32,908 bases of DNA from an uncultured archaeon (GTDB lineage: Archaea; Halobacteriota; Methanosarcinia; Methanosarcinales; Methanoperedenaceae): the NCBI GenBank assembly GCA_902386255.1, contig CABMII010000096.1:1-32908 (forward strand). The letters are read 5' to 3'. Below, one piece after another: positions 1,557-30,607 of the stretch. The notes beneath the pieces were generated by a model that saw nothing but the letters and a program-made list of their open reading frames with translations, did no database searches and was not told the DNA's origin. The position numbers and the translations under genes were made by a program. Each line of letters starts with the position of its first letter. Position 1 is the stretch's first letter.

Positions 1557-4187
1557 TTATTGTAAATTTTTATGACTTTCTGTCGTACTTTCCCTACCCA
1601 CCTTCTTCTTCAACTCCGCCAGCGCATTCAGCGCCTCAAGCGGCGTCATTGCATCCACATTGAGCTTTTTCAGTTCCTCAACTACAGGCGATTCTTTTTT
1701 CTCATCCGAACCAAAAAGCATGAGCTGTGTATATTTCGCGCTTCCTCCTCCCCTGATGCCGCTCCCGTTCTCCACTTCCTTCAATATCTCCTTAGCCCTC
1801 TGCGTCACCTTCAGGGGCACGCCAGCGAGCCTCGCTACATGGATGCCGTAGCTCTTATCAGTCGCGCCGGGGATTATCTTGCGGAGGAACACGAGGTCGT
1901 TGCCTTCTTCTTTTACGGCGACGTGATAATTCTTCACGCGCCGCAGGGTTATGGCTGTAAGCTGGTGGTAATGCGTGGCAAACAGCGACCGCACGCCAAC
2001 GCGGTCTTTGTTATGGATGAATTCGACAACGGCTTTTGCGATGCTGTAGCCATCGTAGGTGCTTGTGCCCCTTCCGATTTCATCAAGGAGAACGAGGCTT
2101 TTCTGGGTCGCATTATTCAGGATGTTTGCAAGTTCCACCATTTCTATCATGAACGTGCTTTGCCCACTTGCAAGGTCGTCAAATGCCCCGACGCGCGTGA
2201 ATATCCTGTCCACAAGCCCGACTGATGCGTAGGATGCGGGCACGAAACTCCCAATCTGCGCCATTATCACTATCAGCGCGGTCTGCCTCATGTATGTTGA
2301 TTTCCCTGCCATATTCGGACCGGTGAGGAGCAGGAACTGGTTCTCCTGGCAGTCCATGTGGGTATCGTTCGGTACAAACCCGCCTGGAATCGCATACTCA
2401 ACAACAGGATGCCTCCCGTCGCGGATAAGGATACTGCAGCTATCGTTTACCTCCGGCCTCACATACTTGTTATTAACAGCCATCTCTGCAAGGTTTACTA
2501 TCACGTCAAGCTCAGCTATCGCCTGCGCCGTAGCCTGCAATTCCTTTGACCGCCCCGCGATTTGCGAGTTTATCCCGGTGAACAATTGAAACTCAAGCGC
2601 AACCCGTTTCTCATCTGCAGTAAGTATCATCACTTCCTTTTCCTTAAGTTCAGGCGTATAGAAACGTTCACCGTTTGCGGTTGTCTGCTTTCTTATATAA
2701 TCAGATGGCACCTGTGAAAGATTGGTTTTTGTGACCTCGATATAATACCCGAACACTGAATTGTACCCGATTTTCAGGGATTTTATACCCGTGCGGTCAC
2801 GCTCCTTCTGCTGCATCTCGGCTATCCAATCTTTCCCGTACAGCGACATTTTCTTAAGCTCGTCCAGCTTTTCATTGTAACCTTCTTTAATCATCCCGCC
2901 TTCGCGAACGCTTACAGGAGGAGCGTCCACCAGCGCCCGCCCAAGGAGTGCGACAATATCGGTATAATCGCCAAGTTTCGCAATCATCTCCGACAAAAGA
3001 CCTGATTTGATATCGCTCTCTTTAAGAGACTTTATTATGCCAGGAAACTTTTCGAGAGAGACCTTGAGCGCTATAAGGTCCCTCGCATTTGAATTGCCAT
3101 ACACGATACGCCCGATAAGACGCTCGATATCCCTGATACCCAGAAGTGCCGAGCGCAAATCATACCGCATCAATGTCTTTTTAATAATCTCATCCACAGC
3201 ATCAAGCCGCTCGTTTATTTTATTTACAGAAATCAAAGGCTGCAAAAGCCATTTCCGAAGCATCCGGCCACCCATTGGGGTTTTTGTGCGGTCTATGACT
3301 GATAAAAGCGAGCCTGCTCCCTCGCCACGAATACCCTGTATTATCTCAAGGTTCCGAAGCGTTACTGAATCCAGCACCATGAACTCGTTCTCGGAATATG
3401 TCCTCATCGCCTGTATGTGATTCAAGTCCCTCATCTGGGTTTTTTGGGCATATTCAAGAGCTGCCCCTGATGCTGAAACTGCAGCTTCGAGTTTCCCACA
3501 TCCCATGCCTTCAAGCGTCACGGCGCCGAAATGTTTGAGAAGGCGTTCCCGTGCATTCTTTAGTAAAAAAGCGTCAGCGTCGAATTTATTGATTATGATG
3601 CCCAGGTCTTTTAACCGCTGCGTGAGTTTTTTATTTTCAAAAAGCAATGGCGGGAGTATGCATTCGGCTGGTTTCATCCGCGCGGCTTCACTTATTACCT
3701 TGTCATAGTTCTGGTTGTCGGTAAACTGGGTCGTCAGGAATTCTCCCGTGCTTACATCCAGAAACGATAAACCGGCTTCCAGGCCTTCCCCGGAAACAGA
3801 CATCAGGTAATTATTTGACTGGTCTGAAATAAGTGATGAATCTATAACAGTCCCGGGCGTGATGACCCTGACCACACCTCTTTTAACGATGCCTTTTGCG
3901 TTTTTCGGGTCTTCAAGCTGCTCGCATATCGCTACTTTATACCCTTTTTTTATAAGCCGCGGCAGGTAGGAATCCACAGCATGATACGGAATACCGGCAA
4001 GAGGCATATCCTCGCCCTCTTTATCCCTGCCTCTTGATGTGAGCGTTATTTCAAGTTCTTTTGCGATTATTTTCGCATCGTCCCCGAAGGACTCGTAGAA
4101 GTCACCCATCCTGAAGAAAATCAGCGCATCCTTATGTTTTTCCTTGGCCTCATAATACTGCCGCATCGCAGGTGTCATCTTGTCCAT
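1557..4187 (-). CDS. mutS: DNA mismatch repair protein MutS
   Basis: MutS recognises base mismatches and small loops and uses ATP to recruit downstream repair factors. The 876-residue length is normal for the family. The N-terminal mismatch-reading motif is GDFYE, with Phe30 and Glu32. The connector, lever and clamp regions follow. The ATPase has its P-loop GPNMAGKST near residue 622, Walker B LVLLDEIGRGTSTYDG near 697 and the ATHYH switch near 730. The C-terminal dimer/tetramer helix is DAMTPLEALNALAELKKK. A CGGAG ribosome binding site precedes the ATG at 4187. No mutL is in the window. Archaeal MutS of this type is usually viewed as acquired from bacteria. The last 20 or so codons have a diverged duplicate at 701-786. 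Confidence 0.97.
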   Translation of the reverse strand: MDKMTPAMRQYYEAKEKHKDALIFFRMGDFYESFGDDAKIIAKELEITLTSRGRDKEGEDMPLAGIPYHAVDSYLPRLIKKGYKVAICEQLEDPKNAKGIVKRGVVRVITPGTVIDSSLISDQSNNYLMSVSGEGLEAGLSFLDVSTGEFLTTQFTDNQNYDKVISEAARMKPAECILPPLLFENKKLTQRLKDLGIIINKFDADAFLLKNARERLLKHFGAVTLEGMGCGKLEAAVSASGAALEYAQKTQMRDLNHIQAMRTYSENEFMVLDSVTLRNLEIIQGIRGEGAGSLLSVIDRTKTPMGGRMLRKWLLQPLISVNKINERLDAVDEIIKKTLMRYDLRSALLGIRDIERLIGRIVYGNSNARDLIALKVSLEKFPGIIKSLKESDIKSGLLSEMIAKLGDYTDIVALLGRALVDAPPVSVREGGMIKEGYNEKLDELKKMSLYGKDWIAEMQQKERDRTGIKSLKIGYNSVFGYYIEVTKTNLSQVPSDYIRKQTTANGERFYTPELKEKEVMILTADEKRVALEFQLFTGINSQIAGRSKELQATAQAIAELDVIVNLAEMAVNNKYVRPEVNDSCSILIRDGRHPVVEYAIPGGFVPNDTHMDCQENQFLLLTGPNMAGKSTYMRQTALIVIMAQIGSFVPASYASVGLVDRIFTRVGAFDDLASGQSTFMIEMVELANILNNATQKSLVLLDEIGRGTSTYDGYSIAKAVVEFIHNKDRVGVRSLFATHYHQLTAITLRRVKNYHVAVKEEGNDLVFLRKIIPGATDKSYGIHVARLAGVPLKVTQRAKEILKEVENGSGIRGGGSAKYTQLMLFGSDEKKESPVVEELKKLNVDAMTPLEALNALAELKKKVGRESTTESHKNLQ

Positions 4188-4267
4188 TCAGTTTGTCTCC
4201 GGTCGAGATATTCATTTATTCCTATTTTTGTTTTTGCATGCCTTTGTTGGTGCTGACACACACCGCA

Positions 4268-4320
4268 GAGACGCAAAGTTCGCAAAGATGTTATTCTTTA
4301 GCTTTGCGTTCTTGCGCCTC
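4268..4320. repeat. Imperfect palindromic intergenic repeat 1
   Basis: The left arm GAGACGCAAAGTTCGCAAAG (4268-4287) pairs with CTTTGCGTTCTTGCGCCTC (4302-4320) across a 14-base loop. GACGCAAAG...CGCAAAG motifs are familiar as dispersed intergenic repeats in many prokaryotic genomes. Open frames across it on both strands have repeat-like composition, and I do not count them as genes. Confidence 0.65.
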
Positions 4321-4332
4321 GATATAAACAAA

Positions 4333-4418
4333 GCGAACACGGATGACACGGATTCGACGGATGCCCACGGATTTGTATCTGTGAAAATCAGTGTTATCCG
4401 CGCAATCCGTGTTCTACG
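4333..4418. repeat. Imperfect palindromic intergenic repeat 2
   Basis: GCGAACACGGATGACACGGAT (4333-4353) is mirrored by ATCCGCGCAATCCGTGTTC (4396-4414), and the intervening CACGGATTTGTATCTGTGAAAATCAGTG adds further short ACGGAT/ATCCGTG units. This matches the widespread ACACGGAT/ATCCGTGT class of dispersed intergenic repeats. Together with repeat 1 it fills most of the 319-base gap between mutS and the permease gene. It may form a hairpin that ends transcription from either side, but no function is demonstrated. Confidence 0.65.
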
Positions 4419-4507
4419 CCAACTGTTCACATTGGTATAGGTTTCTTCATTGTTATCTATAAACTTAGTTCAGCCGATTTTGCGGCGATTTATTTAATCA
4501 TCTGCGG

Positions 4508-11453: not shown

Positions 11454-11512
11454 GTTATGGTGGATGATTTACGAATTGTGGAAATTCTTAGAGTTGAACG
11501 CTAAGACGACTT

Positions 11513-11704
11513 TTATATCCCAAGTTCTTTAGCTAAATCTTCAAAGTCTCTAATTTTAGTACCTTCTTTTTTACCTTCTTCGAGCTGTTTCATAATATCA
11601 ACATCCGATAGAACTTCTATAGTTTCTTTCATCGACTCGTATTCGTCTATCGATATTGTAATCCAGCCTGCTTGATGTTTTCCGGTTATTGTTGCATTAG
11701 CCAT
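11513..11704 (-). CDS. Orphan Phd/YefM-like antitoxin
   Basis: The 63-residue protein resembles type II antitoxins of the Phd/YefM group: a short N-terminal DNA-binding part followed by the common linker motif SIDEYESMKETIEVLSDVDI and a toxin-binding tail of the form MKQLEEGKKE. The usual RelE/Txe or Doc partner would begin immediately downstream, at positions below 11513. That stretch has only about 110 non-coding bases before the next gene, which is not a toxin. It is therefore an orphan. It is divergent from the TIR/NB-ARC gene, and whether it regulates that gene is unknown. Confidence 0.6.
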   Translation of the reverse strand: MANATITGKHQAGWITISIDEYESMKETIEVLSDVDIMKQLEEGKKEGTKIRDFEDLAKELGI

Positions 11705-11777
11705 TTGATCAATCTTTACAGCATTTTTTATCTATAAAAATTAGGATGGTCAAACTAATTCTACCCAGGCATATCTT

Positions 11778-11886: not shown

Positions 11887-14661
11887 ATGAGCAAGCCTAA
11901 TGTCTTCATAAGCTACAACCATAAAGATGAAAACTGGAAAGACAAACTAGTTAGCCATTTGGGAGTACTGCAACATGAGAATCTTCTAAATACATGGGAC
12001 GACCGCTGCATTGGTGCCGGTGAGGACTGGTTCCAGAAAATACAAGAAGCTATTGACGCCGCCAGTGTAGCCATTCTGCTAATCTCAGCCGATTTTCTTA
12101 CATCAAAATTCATCCTTAATGAAGAGGTTCCTCGCCTTCTGGAACTTAGGGAAAAGAAAGGGCTGCGCATTTTTCCAGTTATCACCCGACCTTGCGCGTG
12201 GGATGAAGTGAAATGGCTTGCTAAAATGCAAGCCCGCCCAAAGGATGGAAAACCGCTTACTTCTGGCAGTGAGAATCAGGCTGAAATCGAACTGACAGCC
12301 ATTACAAAAGAAATCAAGTCTATAATCAAAGGAAGTTCTCAGGAAGACAAAGATTTTGTCAATATAGGCCCAGAAAAAATAAAAATATTCCTCGCCAAAC
12401 TCCCCTCCACCAATCCCGAACTCTTTGGCCGCGAAAAAGAATTGAAAATGCTGGATGAAGCCTGGGCAAATCGTAAAATCAATATCGTAAGCCTTGTGGC
12501 GTGGGGTGGTATGGGCAAGACAGCGCTGGTCAACACATGGCTGCGCCAGATGGAACAAGAAAACTTTCGCGGTGCCGAGCGCGTGTTCGGCTGGTCATTC
12601 TACAGTCAGGGGGCTTCAGAAAAGAAACAGGTATCTACTGACCTTTTTATCGCTTCCGCACTGGAATGGTTTGGTGATCCAGACCCAAATAAAGGGACAC
12701 CGTGGGAAAAAGGTGAAAGATTAGCTGACCTTATCAAGAAAAAGCGCACTCTACTCATACTTGATGGGCTTGAGCCTTTGCAGAATCCTCCTGGCGAAAA
12801 GCAGGGCCAAATCAAAGACCCGGCTCTTAAATATTTGCTCAGAGAATTAGCCAACAACAACTCCGGTTTATGCATCATAACCACAAGGTTTGCTGTCAAA
12901 GATATCAAGGATTTTGTCGGTAAAACGGTTAATAACAAACCTCTTGACAACCTGTCATCTGAGGCAGGTGCGCAATTTCTTCAGCATCTTGGTGTAGTAA
13001 AAGGAACTTTCGATGAGCTCAAACAGGCAGTCGTTGAATTTGATGGTCATGCTCTCGCTCTTTCATTACTGGGTAGATACCTTGCCATTGTTTATCAAGG
13101 TGATATACGACAACGTGATAAAATCGCCAGATTGACAGATGAGCAGAAACAGGGAGGTCATGCCAGACGAGTTATTGAATCATATGAAAAATGGTTCGAA
13201 GGCAAACCAGAGTTGAATATCCTTCGGATAATGGGACTTTTTGACCGTTCCGCTGATGGCGGTGCGATAAAAGCATTGAAAGCAAATCCGCCAATCAAAG
13301 GACTGACATCTGAATTGAATGAATTATCGGAAGAAAAGTGGCTATACGCTTTAGATAACCTCAGAGAAGCAAAGCTCCTCATTAAGGAAAGCCAAAATAG
13401 ACCGGATACACTGGATTGTCACCCCCTGATAAGAGAATATTTTGGTGAGAAATTAAAGGCAAGTAATCCTGACGCTTGGAGGGAAGCTAATAGCAGACTC
13501 TATGAGTTTTATAAATCTCAAGCTAAAGAATACCCGCAAACCATCGAGGAGATGACACCTCTCTTAATTGCAGTAGCACACGGTTGTGATGCCGGTCGCC
13601 ATCAGGAAGTTATGGACACTGTATATAACCGACGGATACAACGAAAAGAAGAATATTTCATTACGAAAAAACTTGGAGCGTATGGGGCAGCTCTATCCGC
13701 TCTATCCGGTTTTTTTTATATACCTTGGAGACAACCAGTAGATAGTCTTGATGAAACTTCTAAATCCTTTGTTCTGAGTGAAGCAGGCTTTTATCTTCGT
13801 GCAATAGGTCGATTAGAGGAGGCTGTTCAGCCAATGCTGGCCGGGTTAGATGCTGATATTGCACTGAAAAGCTGGAAAGACGGTTCTGTCAGCGCTACCA
13901 ATCTTAGCGAACTTTATTTAATAATAGGGGACTTGGCACATGCTTTAGGTCTTGCCGAAAGGGGTGTAGAACTAGCTGACCGCAATAGTGATATATACAA
14001 TAGAAAAGCCAGACGAACCACTTTGGCAAATGCTCTTTATTATTCGAACCGTATTAGTGATTCCGTGGCTACCTTCCGGAAAGCTGAAGAAATTCAAAAG
14101 AAATTAAAAGGAGAGAAAAAATTTCTTTACTCTAAGTCTGGTTTTGATTACTGTAACTTGCTTCTAAACCAAGGGAAATATCAGGTCGTGCATACGCGGG
14201 CTAGTCAGACAATCAAAATAGCAAAAAGAAACCATTGGCTTCTTGACATTGCCCTAGATAATATTTCAATTGGAAGGGCTTATTTGCTTCAGGCACAACA
14301 CGATAAAAGCACCGATTTTATCAGGGCAGCAGAACACCTGAACCTGGGTGTTGATGGCTTGAGACAGGCAGGGACTCAGCATCACTTGCCTCGTGGTCTT
14401 CTTGGACGTGCGGAGCTTTACAGAGTGAGCGGCGAGTTCATTAAGGCGCAGCATGACTTGGAGGAAGCAATGATCATTGCTGAACGTGGGAGCATGGGCT
14501 TGCATCAGGCGGATTGCCATCTTGAATATGCTCGCCTCCATCTTGCTATGGCGGAAAAAAGTAAGGCGCGTGAAAGCCTATTAAAGGCTAAAAACATGAT
14601 TGACAAATTGGGTTATCATTTGCGGGATAAAGATGTGAAGGAAATTGAAGGGCTACTCTAA
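11887..14661 (+). CDS. TIR / NB-ARC NTPase / helical-repeat protein (prokaryotic NLR-like)
   Basis: Three parts are visible in this 924-residue protein. Residues 4-130 form a TIR domain (VFISYNHKDENW, AILLISADFLTSKFILNEE with candidate catalytic Glu79 or Glu80, and a PxDGKP-type end, RPKDGKP). Residues 178-450 form a STAND NTPase close to NB-ARC: P-loop GGMGKT at 207-212, Walker B LLILDGLE at 289-296, sensor ITTR at 331-334 and a GxP-like GHALALSLLGRYL. A winged-helix segment with an MHD-like CHPLIREYF follows. The remaining roughly 400 residues are helical repeats of TPR character, suited to sensing. By analogy with bacterial TIR-STAND defence proteins and plant NLRs, sensor binding would oligomerise the protein and activate NAD-consuming TIR activity. 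This role is inferred. No partner gene accompanies it. Confidence 0.85.
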   Translation: MSKPNVFISYNHKDENWKDKLVSHLGVLQHENLLNTWDDRCIGAGEDWFQKIQEAIDAASVAILLISADFLTSKFILNEEVPRLLELREKKGLRIFPVITRPCAWDEVKWLAKMQARPKDGKPLTSGSENQAEIELTAITKEIKSIIKGSSQEDKDFVNIGPEKIKIFLAKLPSTNPELFGREKELKMLDEAWANRKINIVSLVAWGGMGKTALVNTWLRQMEQENFRGAERVFGWSFYSQGASEKKQVSTDLFIASALEWFGDPDPNKGTPWEKGERLADLIKKKRTLLILDGLEPLQNPPGEKQGQIKDPALKYLLRELANNNSGLCIITTRFAVKDIKDFVGKTVNNKPLDNLSSEAGAQFLQHLGVVKGTFDELKQAVVEFDGHALALSLLGRYLAIVYQGDIRQRDKIARLTDEQKQGGHARRVIESYEKWFEGKPELNILRIMGLFDRSADGGAIKALKANPPIKGLTSELNELSEEKWLYALDNLREAKLLIKESQNRPDTLDCHPLIREYFGEKLKASNPDAWREANSRLYEFYKSQAKEYPQTIEEMTPLLIAVAHGCDAGRHQEVMDTVYNRRIQRKEEYFITKKLGAYGAALSALSGFFYIPWRQPVDSLDETSKSFVLSEAGFYLRAIGRLEEAVQPMLAGLDADIALKSWKDGSVSATNLSELYLIIGDLAHALGLAERGVELADRNSDIYNRKARRTTLANALYYSNRISDSVATFRKAEEIQKKLKGEKKFLYSKSGFDYCNLLLNQGKYQVVHTRASQTIKIAKRNHWLLDIALDNISIGRAYLLQAQHDKSTDFIRAAEHLNLGVDGLRQAGTQHHLPRGLLGRAELYRVSGEFIKAQHDLEEAMIIAERGSMGLHQADCHLEYARLHLAMAEKSKARESLLKAKNMIDKLGYHLRDKDVKEIEGLL

Positions 14662-14682: not shown

Positions 14683-14757
14683 TTACCCACTCCCTCCCAC
14701 CATCGCCTTCCTCACCAGCACATGAGGCGCGCCGTCGCTCACGGGCACAAGCTACCT
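14683..14757 (-). pseudogene. Relic of a second tldD 3' end
   Basis: Positions 14696-14756 match 15098-15158 inside tldD at 54 of 61 bases. On the minus strand the relic encodes LVPVSDGAPHVLVRKAMV plus GGSG and ends in TAA at 14683-14685, the same 22 C-terminal residues as intact TldD, which ends in TGA. All in-frame differences within these 22 codons are synonymous. The codon just upstream, CAG in tldD, is TAG here. Such a pattern arises when two alleles diverge as working genes, so this tail comes from a different tldD lineage than the present gene. Nothing recognisable of tldD remains upstream of the TAG. Confidence 0.85.
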
Positions 14758-14818
14758 GCTCACAGGAAAATTATAAGTTGTTTGAATGCTATAATTTTTG
14801 GTAATTAAAAGGTCGTAT

Positions 14819-14971
14819 ATGGAAAAATCAAGGCATCCTAACGAGGAAGAAATTGACGAGAAGGAATGGTTGCGTATAGCAAATGCCAATCCTGTTTTTG
14901 ATTTCCTGAAAGAACCTGAAGAGGATATATACACAGCCGATGATGGAAGACCATTGCATGACGATGGGTAA
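14819..14971 (+). CDS. Antitoxin-like 50-residue protein without toxin
   Basis: This small ORF encodes 50 residues with an acidic helical start (HPNEEEIDEKEWLRIA) and the segment NPVFDFLKEPEEDIYTADDG. I associate this F-D-F-L-K-x-P-x-E-D-I-Y-T pattern with small proteins that precede MazF/PemK-type toxins, but I recall this only loosely and cannot check it. No toxin gene follows, only about 110 non-coding bases before tldD. It is the sole cargo between the two tldD 3' ends. The spacing GGT-N-ATG suggests weak initiation. Confidence 0.5.
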   Translation: MEKSRHPNEEEIDEKEWLRIANANPVFDFLKEPEEDIYTADDGRPLHDDG

Positions 14972-15084
14972 AGCAGTCCTTTTTCGCTTTTCCATTTTGG
15001 GATTTTGCGTAAGCGCCGCAAATTAATAAATATTATTTATAAAATTACTCTTTGCGAACTTTCCGGTGGCTAAAAGCATGAATC

Positions 15085-16413
15085 TCACCCGCTTCCCCCC
15101 ACCATCGCCTTCCTCACAAGCACATGCGGCGCCCCATCGCTCACAGGCACGAGCTGCCCCGCCTTCCCGCACCTGCCTGAATTCATCTCACGGTCGTTCC
15201 CCACAGCAGCCACGTTATTCAGAATCTCAAGCGTGTGCCCCGACAGCGAGACATCCCGAAGCGGCGTCGTGAGTTCCCCGTTCTCGACCATGAAACCGCG
15301 CTCGGCATTGAACTGGAACACTCCCTCTCCCGGGTTCACCTGGCCGCCGCGCGAGCCTTTCAAATAGATGCCATCCTTTAATTCACCAAGCATCTCCTCG
15401 AACTTCATCCCGTCAGGAGCTATGAACGTATTGCTCATCCTGATTACAGGGCGGGCATATCCCTGGGCGCGGGAATTCCTGCTCGACCCGCCCAACTGCC
15501 CCGCGCTCTCCCTTGAATGGAGGAAGGATTTCAGCACGCCGTTTTCTATCAGCGTCGTTCTCTTTGATTCCGCCCCTTCGTCATCGAACGGATAGTAGCC
15601 GTATTCATGCAGTGATGGGTCATCATACACTGTAATAAGAGGAGAAGCTATTTGCTCACCAATTTTTCCCGCAAGTATGGAATTTCCCTCAAGAACATGG
15701 TCAGCCTCGACGGCATGTCCCACGGCCTCATGGATGAACACGCCTGCCAGTTCCTGATCAAGAATCACAGGGTATGTCCCGGCCTTTGGCGTTTTTGCAG
15801 ACAATAATTCAACCGCGGTATCAGCCGCTTTCCGCGCCAACTCAAAAGCATTATGTTTTTTGAAAAACTCAAAACCTATGACGCCAAACCTGCTTTCCCT
15901 TCCTATCTGGTATATCCCTTCTGACTGGGCTATGGCGCTTACTGCAAAACCCACGCGGTTTAACGAATATTCGCAATCAAGACCTTCCGAACTTGAATAC
16001 CTGACCGTGATTATAGACTCTGAATAAATGGCATTCGTGCTTTTTATGCCTTCAATCTTGGCGCTTTTTTCAATTTCCAAAAGCAATTTTACTTTATCCT
16101 CGATCGGGATATCCTCCGGGTTCTCTTTGACCTCAGGAAGATTCTGTAAATTCGGTTTTTCTATCGGGGCAAGCCTGACCGGGCTCCTTGGACTTTTGGT
16201 TTTAGCAGCCCTGGCAAGCCTTCTAGCAGAACCCAGCGCAGCATCCAGGTTTCCTGATGCGCCGTCCTGCGATACGAATCCCCACGAGCCAGAATCAAGA
16301 ACTCTTACTGCAGCGCCGCTTGAAAAATTATTCGAAATCTCCCGTATCTCGCCGTTATCCAACACAATAGCTGTGCTTGCGCTCTTTATCACGCGTGAGT
16401 CATAAAAATCCAT
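15085..16413 (-). CDS. tldD: TldD metalloprotease
   Basis: TldD and TldE together form a zinc peptidase that degrades unfolded small peptides and matures some modified peptides. TldD carries the active site. The 442-residue product has the zinc motif HEAVGHAVEAD near residue 228, GSSRNSRAQGYARPVIRMSN near 310, PGEGVFQFNAERGFMVENGE near 362-381 and the C-terminal SGRCGKAGQ. TldE (PmbA) often lies next to tldD, but here the downstream side is occupied by a duplicate tldD tail and accessory DNA. The start codon is 6 bases downstream of lonB, so the two are one transcription unit, both concerned with proteolysis. Confidence 0.93.
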   Translation of the reverse strand: MDFYDSRVIKSASTAIVLDNGEIREISNNFSSGAAVRVLDSGSWGFVSQDGASGNLDAALGSARRLARAAKTKSPRSPVRLAPIEKPNLQNLPEVKENPEDIPIEDKVKLLLEIEKSAKIEGIKSTNAIYSESIITVRYSSSEGLDCEYSLNRVGFAVSAIAQSEGIYQIGRESRFGVIGFEFFKKHNAFELARKAADTAVELLSAKTPKAGTYPVILDQELAGVFIHEAVGHAVEADHVLEGNSILAGKIGEQIASPLITVYDDPSLHEYGYYPFDDEGAESKRTTLIENGVLKSFLHSRESAGQLGGSSRNSRAQGYARPVIRMSNTFIAPDGMKFEEMLGELKDGIYLKGSRGGQVNPGEGVFQFNAERGFMVENGELTTPLRDVSLSGHTLEILNNVAAVGNDREMNSGRCGKAGQLVPVSDGAPHVLVRKAMVGGSG

Positions 16414-28283: not shown

Positions 28284-28484
28284 CTATGACTCCTCCTCGA
28301 AAATAAAGACCTCCTCTATATTAGATTTTAAAACTTTAGCTATATCGTATGCAAGTTTTAATGAGGGGTTATATTTTCCTTTTTCCAAAAAAACAATGGT
28401 TTCTCTTCTTACACCTACCTTTTTAGCAAGCTCTTCCTGGGTTAAATCGTATCTTGCCCGCAGTTCTTTAATTCTCGTTCTCAT
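28284..28484 (-). CDS. XRE-family HTH regulator of the DUF2178 operon
   Basis: The 66-residue protein is essentially one Cro/CI-type helix-turn-helix: [20 protein letters not shown], then [20 protein letters not shown] and [16 protein letters not shown]. It starts within the stop of the fifth DUF2178 gene (TAATG) and is the last gene of the operon. Small XRE proteins next to DUF2178 membrane proteins are a recurring archaeal pairing. A DNA-binding role is firm for the family. That it represses its own operon through the repeat at 30624-30664 is my inference. Confidence 0.88.
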
Positions 28485-28882
28485 TAACCGGCCTTCTCAT
28501 ACCTGTAAAAGGACAGGAAGAATAATACAGAGGCGACTGCAAAAACCGGGCCCATCAATGCCGTGAATATTATTTCGTTTATCAGCCTTAGACCGAATAA
28601 TGCGAACAAAAGAGATATCGATAAGTAAAGGAATAAGAAACCCGCTCTTGATGCCCTGAGCAGGTTTAGCTCCGAACGCTCGTCGGTGGGAGCCTCTAAT
28701 TCCTCCCCTCTCTTCCACTTTCGGTAGCTATTAATCGAGATAAAAATCCCAAAAATTATGAAAAACCCGCTGAGCAGTTTGCCTAAAAGGTTCTCATAAT
28801 ACAATGAAAGCCAAAGCATACCCCCCAAGATAAAAAATATGCCTATAAACAAATTGCGATATAAAATGTCTTTGGTTTTCAT
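28484..28882 (-). CDS. DUF2178-like membrane protein, paralogue 5
   Basis: The 132-residue protein has four hydrophobic segments (about 9-28, 33-51, 76-97 and 104-125), with the loop motif PTDERS (D67-E68-R69) between segments two and three followed by a small-residue helix RASRAGFLF. The DER motif in this position is the hallmark of the DUF2178 group. Unlike its neighbours it lacks the terminal KKGD motif and ends RYEKAG. Function is unknown, perhaps a membrane sensor. Its ATG overlaps the stop of paralogue 4 by one base. Confidence 0.75.
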
Positions 28883-29316
28883 TACACGTCACCCTTTTTA
28901 TCAATATAAAGCCCAATAATTAACAACGAAAACGCGCCGGCAACCGAAATCACATAAACCGTGCTCGTATATTCCAGCCTTAAATTAAAGATGCTATTGG
29001 CCAGGCCGGAAACCATCAAGCATGCAATAAGCAGTAAAAATGCAACAAATCCGGCCTTCTCGCCGACCCACAAAGACCGTTCGTCAGCTATTGTTTTTCC
29101 TTCTGATTCTGCTTTAAACCTTTTGATATTCATATACGCGCTTATCAATAGAGTCAAGCCGAGGAGAAAGCTGCCAAGCGCACCTTTCTCGTAATACAAC
29201 CTCCCTTCATGAATGTTTTGAAGCATCACAAAAGAACCGAATAAGAGTAAAAATACGCTTAGCGTTATGGTAATCTTACTCATCAATAGCATTTTTTTAT
29301 TATTCTTATTATTCAT
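28882..29316 (-). CDS. DUF2178-like membrane protein, paralogue 4
   Basis: With 144 residues it has the common layout: a basic N-terminus, a pair of hydrophobic segments at about 14-33 and 46-63, the loop TIADERS (D78-E79-R80) followed by KAGFVAFLLL, two further segments, and the end YIDKKGDV. It overlaps the stop of paralogue 3 by four bases (ATGA), so translation is probably coupled. Function is unknown. Confidence 0.75.
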   Translation of the reverse strand: MNNKNNKKMLLMSKITITLSVFLLLFGSFVMLQNIHEGRLYYEKGALGSFLLGLTLLISAYMNIKRFKAESEGKTIADERSLWVGEKAGFVAFLLLIACLMVSGLANSIFNLRLEYTSTVYVISVAGAFSLLIIGLYIDKKGDV

Positions 29317-29726
29317 ATCATATCACCTTTTTTATTGCAGTACCACCTTAGCACAATGAAAATCCAGAGCCCGATAATCCAAATATCCTGAACACCTTCA
29401 GCTAATTCTCTTGAAGGAGTTAATATTGGGGATAACTTCAGCAATCTGAGAAGCGGGATTATTGCTGCAATCAGCAGCGTTGCAATAAACGCTGAATACC
29501 CGGCTTTATCGCGGATTCTCACGGACCTTTCATCTTCTATTAAATCTTCTTTAGATTTGGTTGCTGCAATAATACCGGCAGTTAATCCTATCATTCCACC
29601 CAAAAATAAAAGTAATCCGATAGCCCTAACAGGTTCAATAAACAAAAAAATAATTATTCCTGCCAGAATGGCGCCCAGGCTGATTCCAATAAATTTTATG
29701 ATATCCCTGTCTTTCCTGAATTTCAT
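29313..29726 (-). CDS. DUF2178-like membrane protein, paralogue 3
   Basis: A 137-residue member with hydrophobic segments at about 11-30, 36-56, 75-95 and 110-126. The inter-segment loop is DLIEDERS (D65-E66-R67) followed by VRIRDKAGYSAF, and the C-terminus is CNKKGDMI. Start and stop overlap those of its neighbours by one and four bases. Function is unknown. Sequence identity to the other four is low outside the DER and KKGD motifs, so the duplication is old or fast-evolving. Confidence 0.75.
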   Translation of the reverse strand: MKFRKDRDIIKFIGISLGAILAGIIIFLFIEPVRAIGLLLFLGGMIGLTAGIIAATKSKEDLIEDERSVRIRDKAGYSAFIATLLIAAIIPLLRLLKLSPILTPSRELAEGVQDIWIIGLWIFIVLRWYCNKKGDMI

Positions 29727-30148
29727 TACACGTCACCCTTTTTAACAAAATAGTAGACCAATATAGCCCACGAATATATTCCGATATGTGCGACAATTAT
29801 CGGCGTCCAGGGGGAATCCTTGATTGCCAGCAAGAAACTGTTTATCCCACCCAAAATGTATGCTCCACTCAATAGAATCAAACATCCCACAAGAATCAGA
29901 AATGCGTATAAGCTCGCTTTTTCGAGTGCTCTTTTGGTTCGTTCATCGCCCACAACTCCTGTTCTTGGCATTGACAAAAAAAGCCATGCAGTTATGATAC
30001 CATCCAACCAGAAAATAGTCTCGACAATTACGTTATCACCAAAAAATACCGGAGCTCCTCCTGAAATTTTTTGGATTATTGCAATTGCTATTGACACAAA
30101 CGTGAGAACGAGAACCAAATACCACCCTTTTCTGAGGAAGTTGTTCAT
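29726..30148 (-). CDS. DUF2178-like membrane protein, paralogue 2
   Basis: This 140-residue member has segments at about 8-26, 43-60, 80-102 and 115-134. The loop is GVVGDERTKRALEKASLYAF (D68-E69-R70), and the protein ends YYFVKKGDV. It starts after a 6-base gap from paralogue 1. Its upstream GGTGAT ribosome binding site lies inside a 22-base sequence duplicated within the end of paralogue 1. Function is unknown. Confidence 0.75.
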   Translation of the reverse strand: MNNFLRKGWYLVLVLTFVSIAIAIIQKISGGAPVFFGDNVIVETIFWLDGIITAWLFLSMPRTGVVGDERTKRALEKASLYAFLILVGCLILLSGAYILGGINSFLLAIKDSPWTPIIVAHIGIYSWAILVYYFVKKGDV

Positions 30149-30154
30149 TCGATA

Positions 30155-30607
30155 TCACCTTTTATTGCGAAGTAAGATGTCCTGTCCCAGTGTGGAAACC
30201 AATTGATTGGGGGATTCGACATCACCTTTTCTTGCAAAATAAACATAGAACACTATCATTGTTCCAATCATCACGAGAATTACAGTACTGAGCACCTTCT
30301 TTACGGTCATTTCAAGCGGACTGAAGTAATCTAAAAAACCTAAAACACCGACAAATGTGAGTGTTATAAACCATGAATATTTTACAGCAGCTGCACTTAT
30401 TTTTCGCGTTCTTTCATCAAATTCCGCTTGAACACCATATTTGCTATGTGAATAAATGCCAGTTATTGTGGTTGCTAAGCCAACTGACATAAGCACAGTT
30501 ATGATGATATCGGGCGGGTTCTTCCAAAATATTAAAAGAACAACTGCTACAAGCAATAGTATTGGCCCGAAAATCAATCGTTGTTTATTTACTTTTGTCA
30601 TTTCCAT
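30155..30607 (-). CDS. DUF2178-like membrane protein, paralogue 1, extended tail
   Basis: First gene of the operon, 150 residues, with segments at about 11-27, 34-52, 75-92 and 100-120. The loop is AEFDERTRKISAAAVKYSWF (D64-E65-R66). After the usual terminal YFARKGDV the frame continues for about 20 more residues (ESPNQLVSTLGQDILLRNKR), unlike the others. The cause is visible: a 22-base block at 30214-30235 recurs with two differences at 30147-30168, 67 bases away, so the tail is a duplication or insertion product. GAGGT eight bases upstream is the ribosome binding site. Confidence 0.75.
   Translation of the reverse strand: MEMTKVNKQRLIFGPILLLVAVVLLIFWKNPPDIIITVLMSVGLATTITGIYSHSKYGVQAEFDERTRKISAAAVKYSWFITLTFVGVLGFLDYFSPLEMTVKKVLSTVILVMIGTMIVFYVYFARKGDVESPNQLVSTLGQDILLRNKR

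Follow-up and report, generated by a model that had tools for sequence, protein, structure and literature searches.

The window, the whole 32,908-nt stretch analysed here, lies on contig C96 of a Candidatus Methanoperedens genome that we label G000; the related genomes are referred to as Methanoperedens. It contains an intact tldD gene on the reverse strand and, beyond the 3' end of this gene, a second copy of that end (Table 1). As a sequence-only reading of this DNA had proposed, the 22 C-terminal codons of tldD occur twice, 402 bp apart: positions 14685-14756 and 15087-15158 form a direct repeat of 72 nt with 86% ungapped identity, by a wide margin the strongest repeat of the region. Translation of the reverse strand confirms that the outer copy is in frame and encodes LVPVSDGAPHVLVRKAMVGGSG, 22 codons followed by a stop, which is TAA rather than the TGA of tldD. 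The codon that precedes the 22 is TAG in the outer copy and CAG in tldD.

Table 1. Features of the tldD locus in the window (positions of the whole stretch).
Feature	Position	Strand	Supporting evidence
tldD, intact, 442 aa, stop TGA	15085..16413	-	full-length orthologues 97% identical in close relatives
Inner repeat copy, the working tldD 3' end	15085..15158	-	direct repeat
Second tldD 3' end (outer copy), stranded but in frame, TAA at 14685-14683	14683..14756	-	direct repeat; nhmmer E 2.3e-15
Insert between the copies, PemK/MazF TA cassette remnant (type C), toxin lost	14757..15084	.	homology with the right half of the intact PemK cassettes that G006, G009 and G010 carry at tldD; 93% to G026
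Orphan antitoxin-like ORF, 50 aa (MEKSRHPNEEEIDEKEWLRIANANPVFDFLKEPEEDIYTADDGRPLHDDG)	14819..14971	+	homologue of 83-84 aa ORFs beside PemK in G006 and G009
TIR-NACHT/NB-ARC-TPR defence-type gene, 924 aa, directly outside the outer tail	11887..14661	+	TIR_2 1.2e-14, NACHT 2e-06, ThsB-like TIR 5.9e-30
RelE/ParE-type TA cassette remnant (type B), toxin lost	11497..11750	-	80-85% DNA identity to B cassettes at tldD in G025, G010, G001 and G011
Orphan antitoxin-type ORF within the B remnant	11513-11704
Approximate resumption of the native tldD downstream flank	11455..11470 (near 11463)	.	alignment blocks common to G010, G025, G001 and G022, in G000 from position 3623 downstream of tldD

The two copies differ at 11 of 72 nt, and the earlier observation that in-frame differences are synonymous apart from a nonsense codon at the outer edge holds for 10 of the 11, the exception being that codon. 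Under random change the expected synonymous fraction is 0.27, and the excess has P = 1.6e-5 if all changes are random, or 0.02 if a constrained branch took half of the changes. Ten of 11 outer-copy codons, moreover, are found as the working codon at the same position of tldD in one or more other Methanoperedens. Since 72 bp offer too few sites for a tree, the tails were compared by pairwise differences: the outer tail is 5/72 from the working tail of G001 and 7/72 from that of G006, but 11/72 from its own inner partner; the two copies do not look like sister sequences. Because nearly all of the differences are synonymous and nearly all of the outer codons work elsewhere in the genus, the two tldD ends of G000 look like two alleles rather than one decaying copy, as had been argued from the letters alone. 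The further proposal that a foreign tail was imported and the old one left stranded agrees with these allele-like copies, although 72 bp cannot tell which of them is foreign, the inner tail itself being 1/72 from that of the close relative G010.

The insert between the copies had been described as encoding only a 50-residue antitoxin-like protein. One plausible ORF is indeed all that it contains (14819-14971), and this ORF has no Pfam family match; it matches the C-terminal part of an 83-84 aa protein that is paired with PemK/MazF in relatives, and the insert is not incidental but a decayed toxin-antitoxin (TA) cassette. Beyond the outer tail, the stop codon of the TIR-NACHT-TPR gene is 21 bp away, and a second TA cassette remnant follows; both cassettes in the window have kept an antitoxin-type ORF and lost the toxin. 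The native flank resumes near 11463, and 11.46-15.08 kb is therefore accessory DNA.

Several further observations concern this DNA. Antitoxins outlast toxins repeatedly, with orphans of two types in the window (11513-11704 and 14819-14971) and others at tldD in G001 and G026. The position of the TIR-NACHT-TPR gene (11887-14661) between two TA remnants marks a defence hotspot downstream of tldD. An intergenic motif of the type 'tttgcgaac / cgcaaagttcgcaaag' recurs in the genome (window about 15013-15070 and 4180-4440, G000:C157:3521 and G000:C165:17267), accompanied by a spurious ORF with a translation of the HRRDAKFAK type. Two weak matches on other G000 contigs were considered as extra tail copies and rejected, as what they match is not tldD but the intergenic 'tttgcgaac' part of the insert. 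Elsewhere in the window (28484-30607), five consecutive, near-overlapping reverse-strand ORFs of 132-150 aa appear by eye to be small membrane proteins and tandem paralogues.

Stray tldD tails and TA cassettes across Methanoperedens

A search with TldD found the gene in nearly all of the related genomes and extra C-terminal fragments in seven, G000 included. Stray tails or remnants lie downstream of tldD in nine Methanoperedens genomes other than G000. Relative to the +402 of G000, tail copies are at +850 and +1893 in G010, +768 in G006, +720 in G025, +409 in G026, +884 in G022 and +914 in G009, and weak, decayed remnants are present in G008, G011 and G023. The stray tails are thus 0.4-1.9 kb from tldD, and at E < 0.001 no tail copy was found in these genomes elsewhere than downstream of tldD. 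Genomes without the 402-bp insert had been expected, and the downstream copy is absent from many (for example G003, G004, G019 and G020), while others have different inserts; the same duplicate is not shared by all relatives. Two parts of the sequence-only reading fail in this comparison. The single import event that it envisaged gives way to a process that recurred at tldD and at several other genes, and its argument from synonymous changes is not a general rule, the outer tails of G006, G025 and G009 having many nonsynonymous changes.

A lone 72-bp repeat could by itself result from an ordinary duplication of a local segment with the tldD end, or from an assembly error, in neither case with any link to TA genes. 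The genomes compared are mostly metagenome-assembled. G026 carries an insert and duplicate matching those of G000 (93% over 381 bp) and independent assemblies carry other versions, so the G000 duplicate is not an assembly quirk. Recurrence with different inserts and at other genes, the allele-like copies and the comparison of relatives all speak against such an origin, which we regard as extremely improbable.

The DNA between the tails varies between genomes but is nearly always a compact TA module with a short promoter and toxin and antitoxin genes, present singly or in tandem arrays. The relatives' cassettes include type II TA gene pairs with family matches to MazE-type/PIN_3, ParE, PemK and NTase/HEPN, and four types recur at tldD: A, a MazE-type antitoxin with a PIN toxin (PIN_3; G010 and G022); B, a small antitoxin with a RelE/ParE toxin (G025, G011, G010 and G022, with remnants in G001 and the window); C, a PemK/MazF toxin with the 83-84 aa antitoxin (G006, G009, G010 and G007, with remnants in the window and G026); and E, HEPN with a nucleotidyltransferase (MNT; G007, G009 and G023, with remnants in G008 and G022). 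Their order differs between genomes, being A-C-B in G010, A-B-...-E in G022, C-E in G009, E-C in G007 and C'-TIR-B' in the window. Conservation of the PIN cassette runs from a promoter region of about 40 bp to the stop codon, with flanks that are unrelated between loci.

The junctions have a regular and a variable side. In every case the cassettes start 3-25 bp past the tldD stop codon, and each is followed by another tldD tail, some 70-106 bp long. On its outer side the repeat ends where the gene ends; on its inner side it meets unrelated cassette sequence, at a point within the gene that varies (about -67 to -106 at tldD). Beyond the outer tail, G006 and G026 have a protein that by eye is HNH-like. 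In an alignment of five genomes at the junction of the C cassette and the tail, a 14-bp gap at the left edge of the tail is present in G000 and G026 and absent in G006 and G010, whereas the HNH neighbour on the right is present in G026 and G006 and absent in G000 and G010. All four combinations therefore occur at one tail, which requires either recombination inside a span of about 75 bp or events that happened more than once. No recombinase was seen among the ORFs between tldD and its tails, and no integron integrase (IntI) among the ORFs of the tldD-tail inserts.

Duplicated ends of other genes

The same or similar cassettes are found at the 3' ends of queD, lhr and hsdS and at the 5' ends of cbiA and a TPR gene, flanked by copies of those gene ends; the names of these target genes come from reading translations, not from family searches. 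Several of these cassettes lie between long, diverged direct repeats of 60-250 bp that are ends of the adjoining gene, and the TA families at queD, lhr and the other loci are PemK, ParE, TumE and HEPN. The queD/PTPS-type 3' end, with repeats of 75-250 bp, is present in four copies in G001, three in G006 and two in G010, with multiple queD tails in G000 and others as well; the 3' end of the Lhr-like helicase gene has three copies in each of G022 and G001, and multiple lhr tails also occur in G005, G006 and G017, among others. The hsdS 3' end is duplicated in G008, with an hsdS-like end in G001, the 5' end of the cobyrinate synthase-type gene (cbiA) in G022, and that of the TPR-type gene in G003, G020 and G021. 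Tandem repeats of about 102 bp were also noted within TPR genes that have duplicated 5' ends (L178, G003:C4, 2293-2745; L184, G021:C1, 2050-2594).

A scan for direct-repeat pairs of 45-300 bp, with gene-internal and paralogue repeats filtered out, returned 26 pairs (4, 13 and 9) in 800 kb of three Methanoperedens contigs, several of them in one array, and crude automatic scoring placed nine at gene ends. The control, 600 kb from two other chromosomes of the same order but another family, gave six pairs and no gene-end pair.

The repeated piece comes from the target gene and not from the cassette, since the repeats around a given cassette change from one gene to another. This is also what would be expected if a cassette entered a staggered break at a gene end without homology and duplicated 60-250 bp of its target, the copies diverging later and the working copy being occasionally replaced by recombination. 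Such long target duplication is the main rival to the explanation that we prefer, and may have been the founding event of each cassette. The modules are flanked by variable, target-derived direct repeats of about 100 bp, as restriction-modification units are (PMC3874152, PMC3031569), the same cassette occurs at unrelated genes with different repeats, and several outer tails have decayed. It would have both repeats derive from the same allele, however, and the outer tail of G000 differs almost solely by synonymous codons that work elsewhere and is nearer to the tails of other species, an allele-like state that gene conversion after insertion could cause; copies in other genomes show decay. The outer boundary of the repeat also falls at the gene edge in most loci. 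On balance, long target duplication seems to us an unlikely explanation.

A site-specific recombinase acting in trans, with gene ends as attachment sites, would make this a system akin to integrons or integrative elements, in which each cassette brings a replacement end with it. The consistent start of the cassettes just past the stop codon accords with this, as do the tandem arrays, shuffled order and replacement ends, which recall integrons and 3'-end att sites. Neither a fixed crossover core nor an element-borne tyrosine integrase was found, the inner boundary of the tail varying at both tldD and queD and the tldD-tail inserts having no integrase, and repeats at different loci, 5' ends included, have no obvious sequence in common. 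Given the variable inner boundary, the lack of any enzyme seen and the involvement of 5' ends too, we rank a site-specific integrase low and consider it improbable.

Duplicated ends tend to have a strongly G-rich coding strand or to be rich in GC (window 14683-15158; G022:C15; G001:C1). Third positions of the tldD tail are 63% G in the array genomes; of the 171 gene tails on G022:C15, that of tldD has the highest G content; on this contig the cbiA-type head is among the most GC-rich and the lhr tail is at the 94th percentile for G, and the queD tail of G001 is at the 90th. Candidate causes are a recombination hotspot, biased conversion or selection. Third-position identity over the last 25 tldD codons is 0.734 vs 0.575 in the array genomes and does not rise in the others. 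An exchange of tails between species that this might indicate was withdrawn, as identity exceeds what composition predicts by the same amount (0.07) as in the adjacent stretch; the test is not used as evidence because the rise is mostly explained by G-rich third positions and is found for lhr in all genomes and for queD in none. A bolder and rather doubtful idea is an integron-like system free of integrase, in which G-rich gene ends would be addresses and TA or defence cassettes with a gene-end copy would enter nowhere else, restoring the gene and giving rise to genome-wide arrays that can be reshuffled.

Discussion

Small TA and defence modules have, on our best reading, repeatedly inserted at the ends of housekeeping genes in Methanoperedens, and the duplicate in the window is one of many resulting scars. 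Insertion of TA cassettes is the driver of tail duplication. Every step by which the cassettes enter we infer from its products. The window duplicate is probably the scar of serial insertion of TA or defence cassettes at the tldD 3' end, anchored by homology in the gene end, with the resident end stranded. Incoming DNA from another Methanoperedens lineage, consisting of a gene end and a cassette, would recombine by homology in the resident gene end. Its other end would be joined to a site within that gene by an illegitimate junction, in homology-facilitated illegitimate recombination (HFIR) one with 3-10 bp of microhomology; alternatively, a circle of cassette and tail could enter via one crossover. 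The resident gene end would be displaced outward and left stranded, and the target gene would stay intact because it is given a working end. The tails would then act as homology handles by which cassettes are gained, lost and reshuffled, and in the window the toxins of two cassettes would have been lost later and their antitoxins retained.

Homology-anchored addition is favoured by the gene-edge outer boundary, the variable inner boundary, the lack of any recombinase seen and the junction at which all four combinations occur. Further support comes from the recurrence of tldD tails around different inserts, the confinement of tail copies to the DNA downstream of tldD, the cassette blocks that genomes share in differing order, the cassettes flanked by other gene ends and the allele-like outer codons in the window. 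A reaction of this kind is documented in HFIR, with homology at one end and an illegitimate junction at the other, but its measured frequencies are low and resident DNA is usually lost in the process, which counts against the explanation (PMC3240628). The geometry of the repeats fits HFIR products, from which we infer the reaction; the donor molecule was not seen, with no tail in IMG/VR (exact pattern) or PLSDB (blastn), no PIN toxin in IMG/VR and no intact donor. Also against it are the exchange test at tldD, which is not positive once corrected for composition, and the invariable start of the cassettes near the stop codon, a neater arrangement than illegitimate joining at random would be expected to give.

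A long-standing question is how small TA modules that lack transposases are able to move. These genus-wide natural scars show the points of entry, which are the ends of housekeeping genes, and how the targets survive, by always having a working end; they also show that antitoxins can outlive toxins. As comparable products, they would allow direct tests of homology-anchored insertion, long target duplication and a trans-acting recombinase.

A search of the open-access literature found no description of gene-end TA arrays in Methanoperedens. Integron cassette arrays likewise string together small, TA-rich cassettes in tandem, with a repeat after each one and an order that is shuffled between strains. 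They differ in that no integrase or attC-type shared site was found on the cassettes here, the repeat being a locus-specific piece of the neighbouring gene. Integrative elements attach in the 3' ends of protein genes, such as the icd site of E. coli, and supply a replacement end. There too the host gene stays intact through a substitute 3' end and the old end is displaced outward, but the Methanoperedens inserts are only 0.3-1.9 kb, have no integrase and lack fixed boundaries. Two published models come closest. Restriction-modification units, as described by the Kobayashi group, insert with long target duplication and variable repeats of about 100 bp (PMC3874152, PMC3031569), and are likewise TA-like selfish modules without a transposase; in contrast, the Methanoperedens repeats are at gene edges, often in multi-copy tandem arrays, and can be allele-like, and the modules are classical TA pairs. 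In the T6SS effector-immunity displacement arrays of Vibrio cholerae, orphan immunity genes are retained, and HFIR has been put forward as the explanation (PMC5361080). Both there and here, toxin-type modules are added beside a conserved anchor, with displaced 3' ends, orphan immunity (here antitoxin) genes and no known integrase. Unlike the Vibrio arrays, whose anchor is within the toxin locus, those of Methanoperedens are anchored in the 3' or 5' ends of unrelated housekeeping genes, and in an archaeon.
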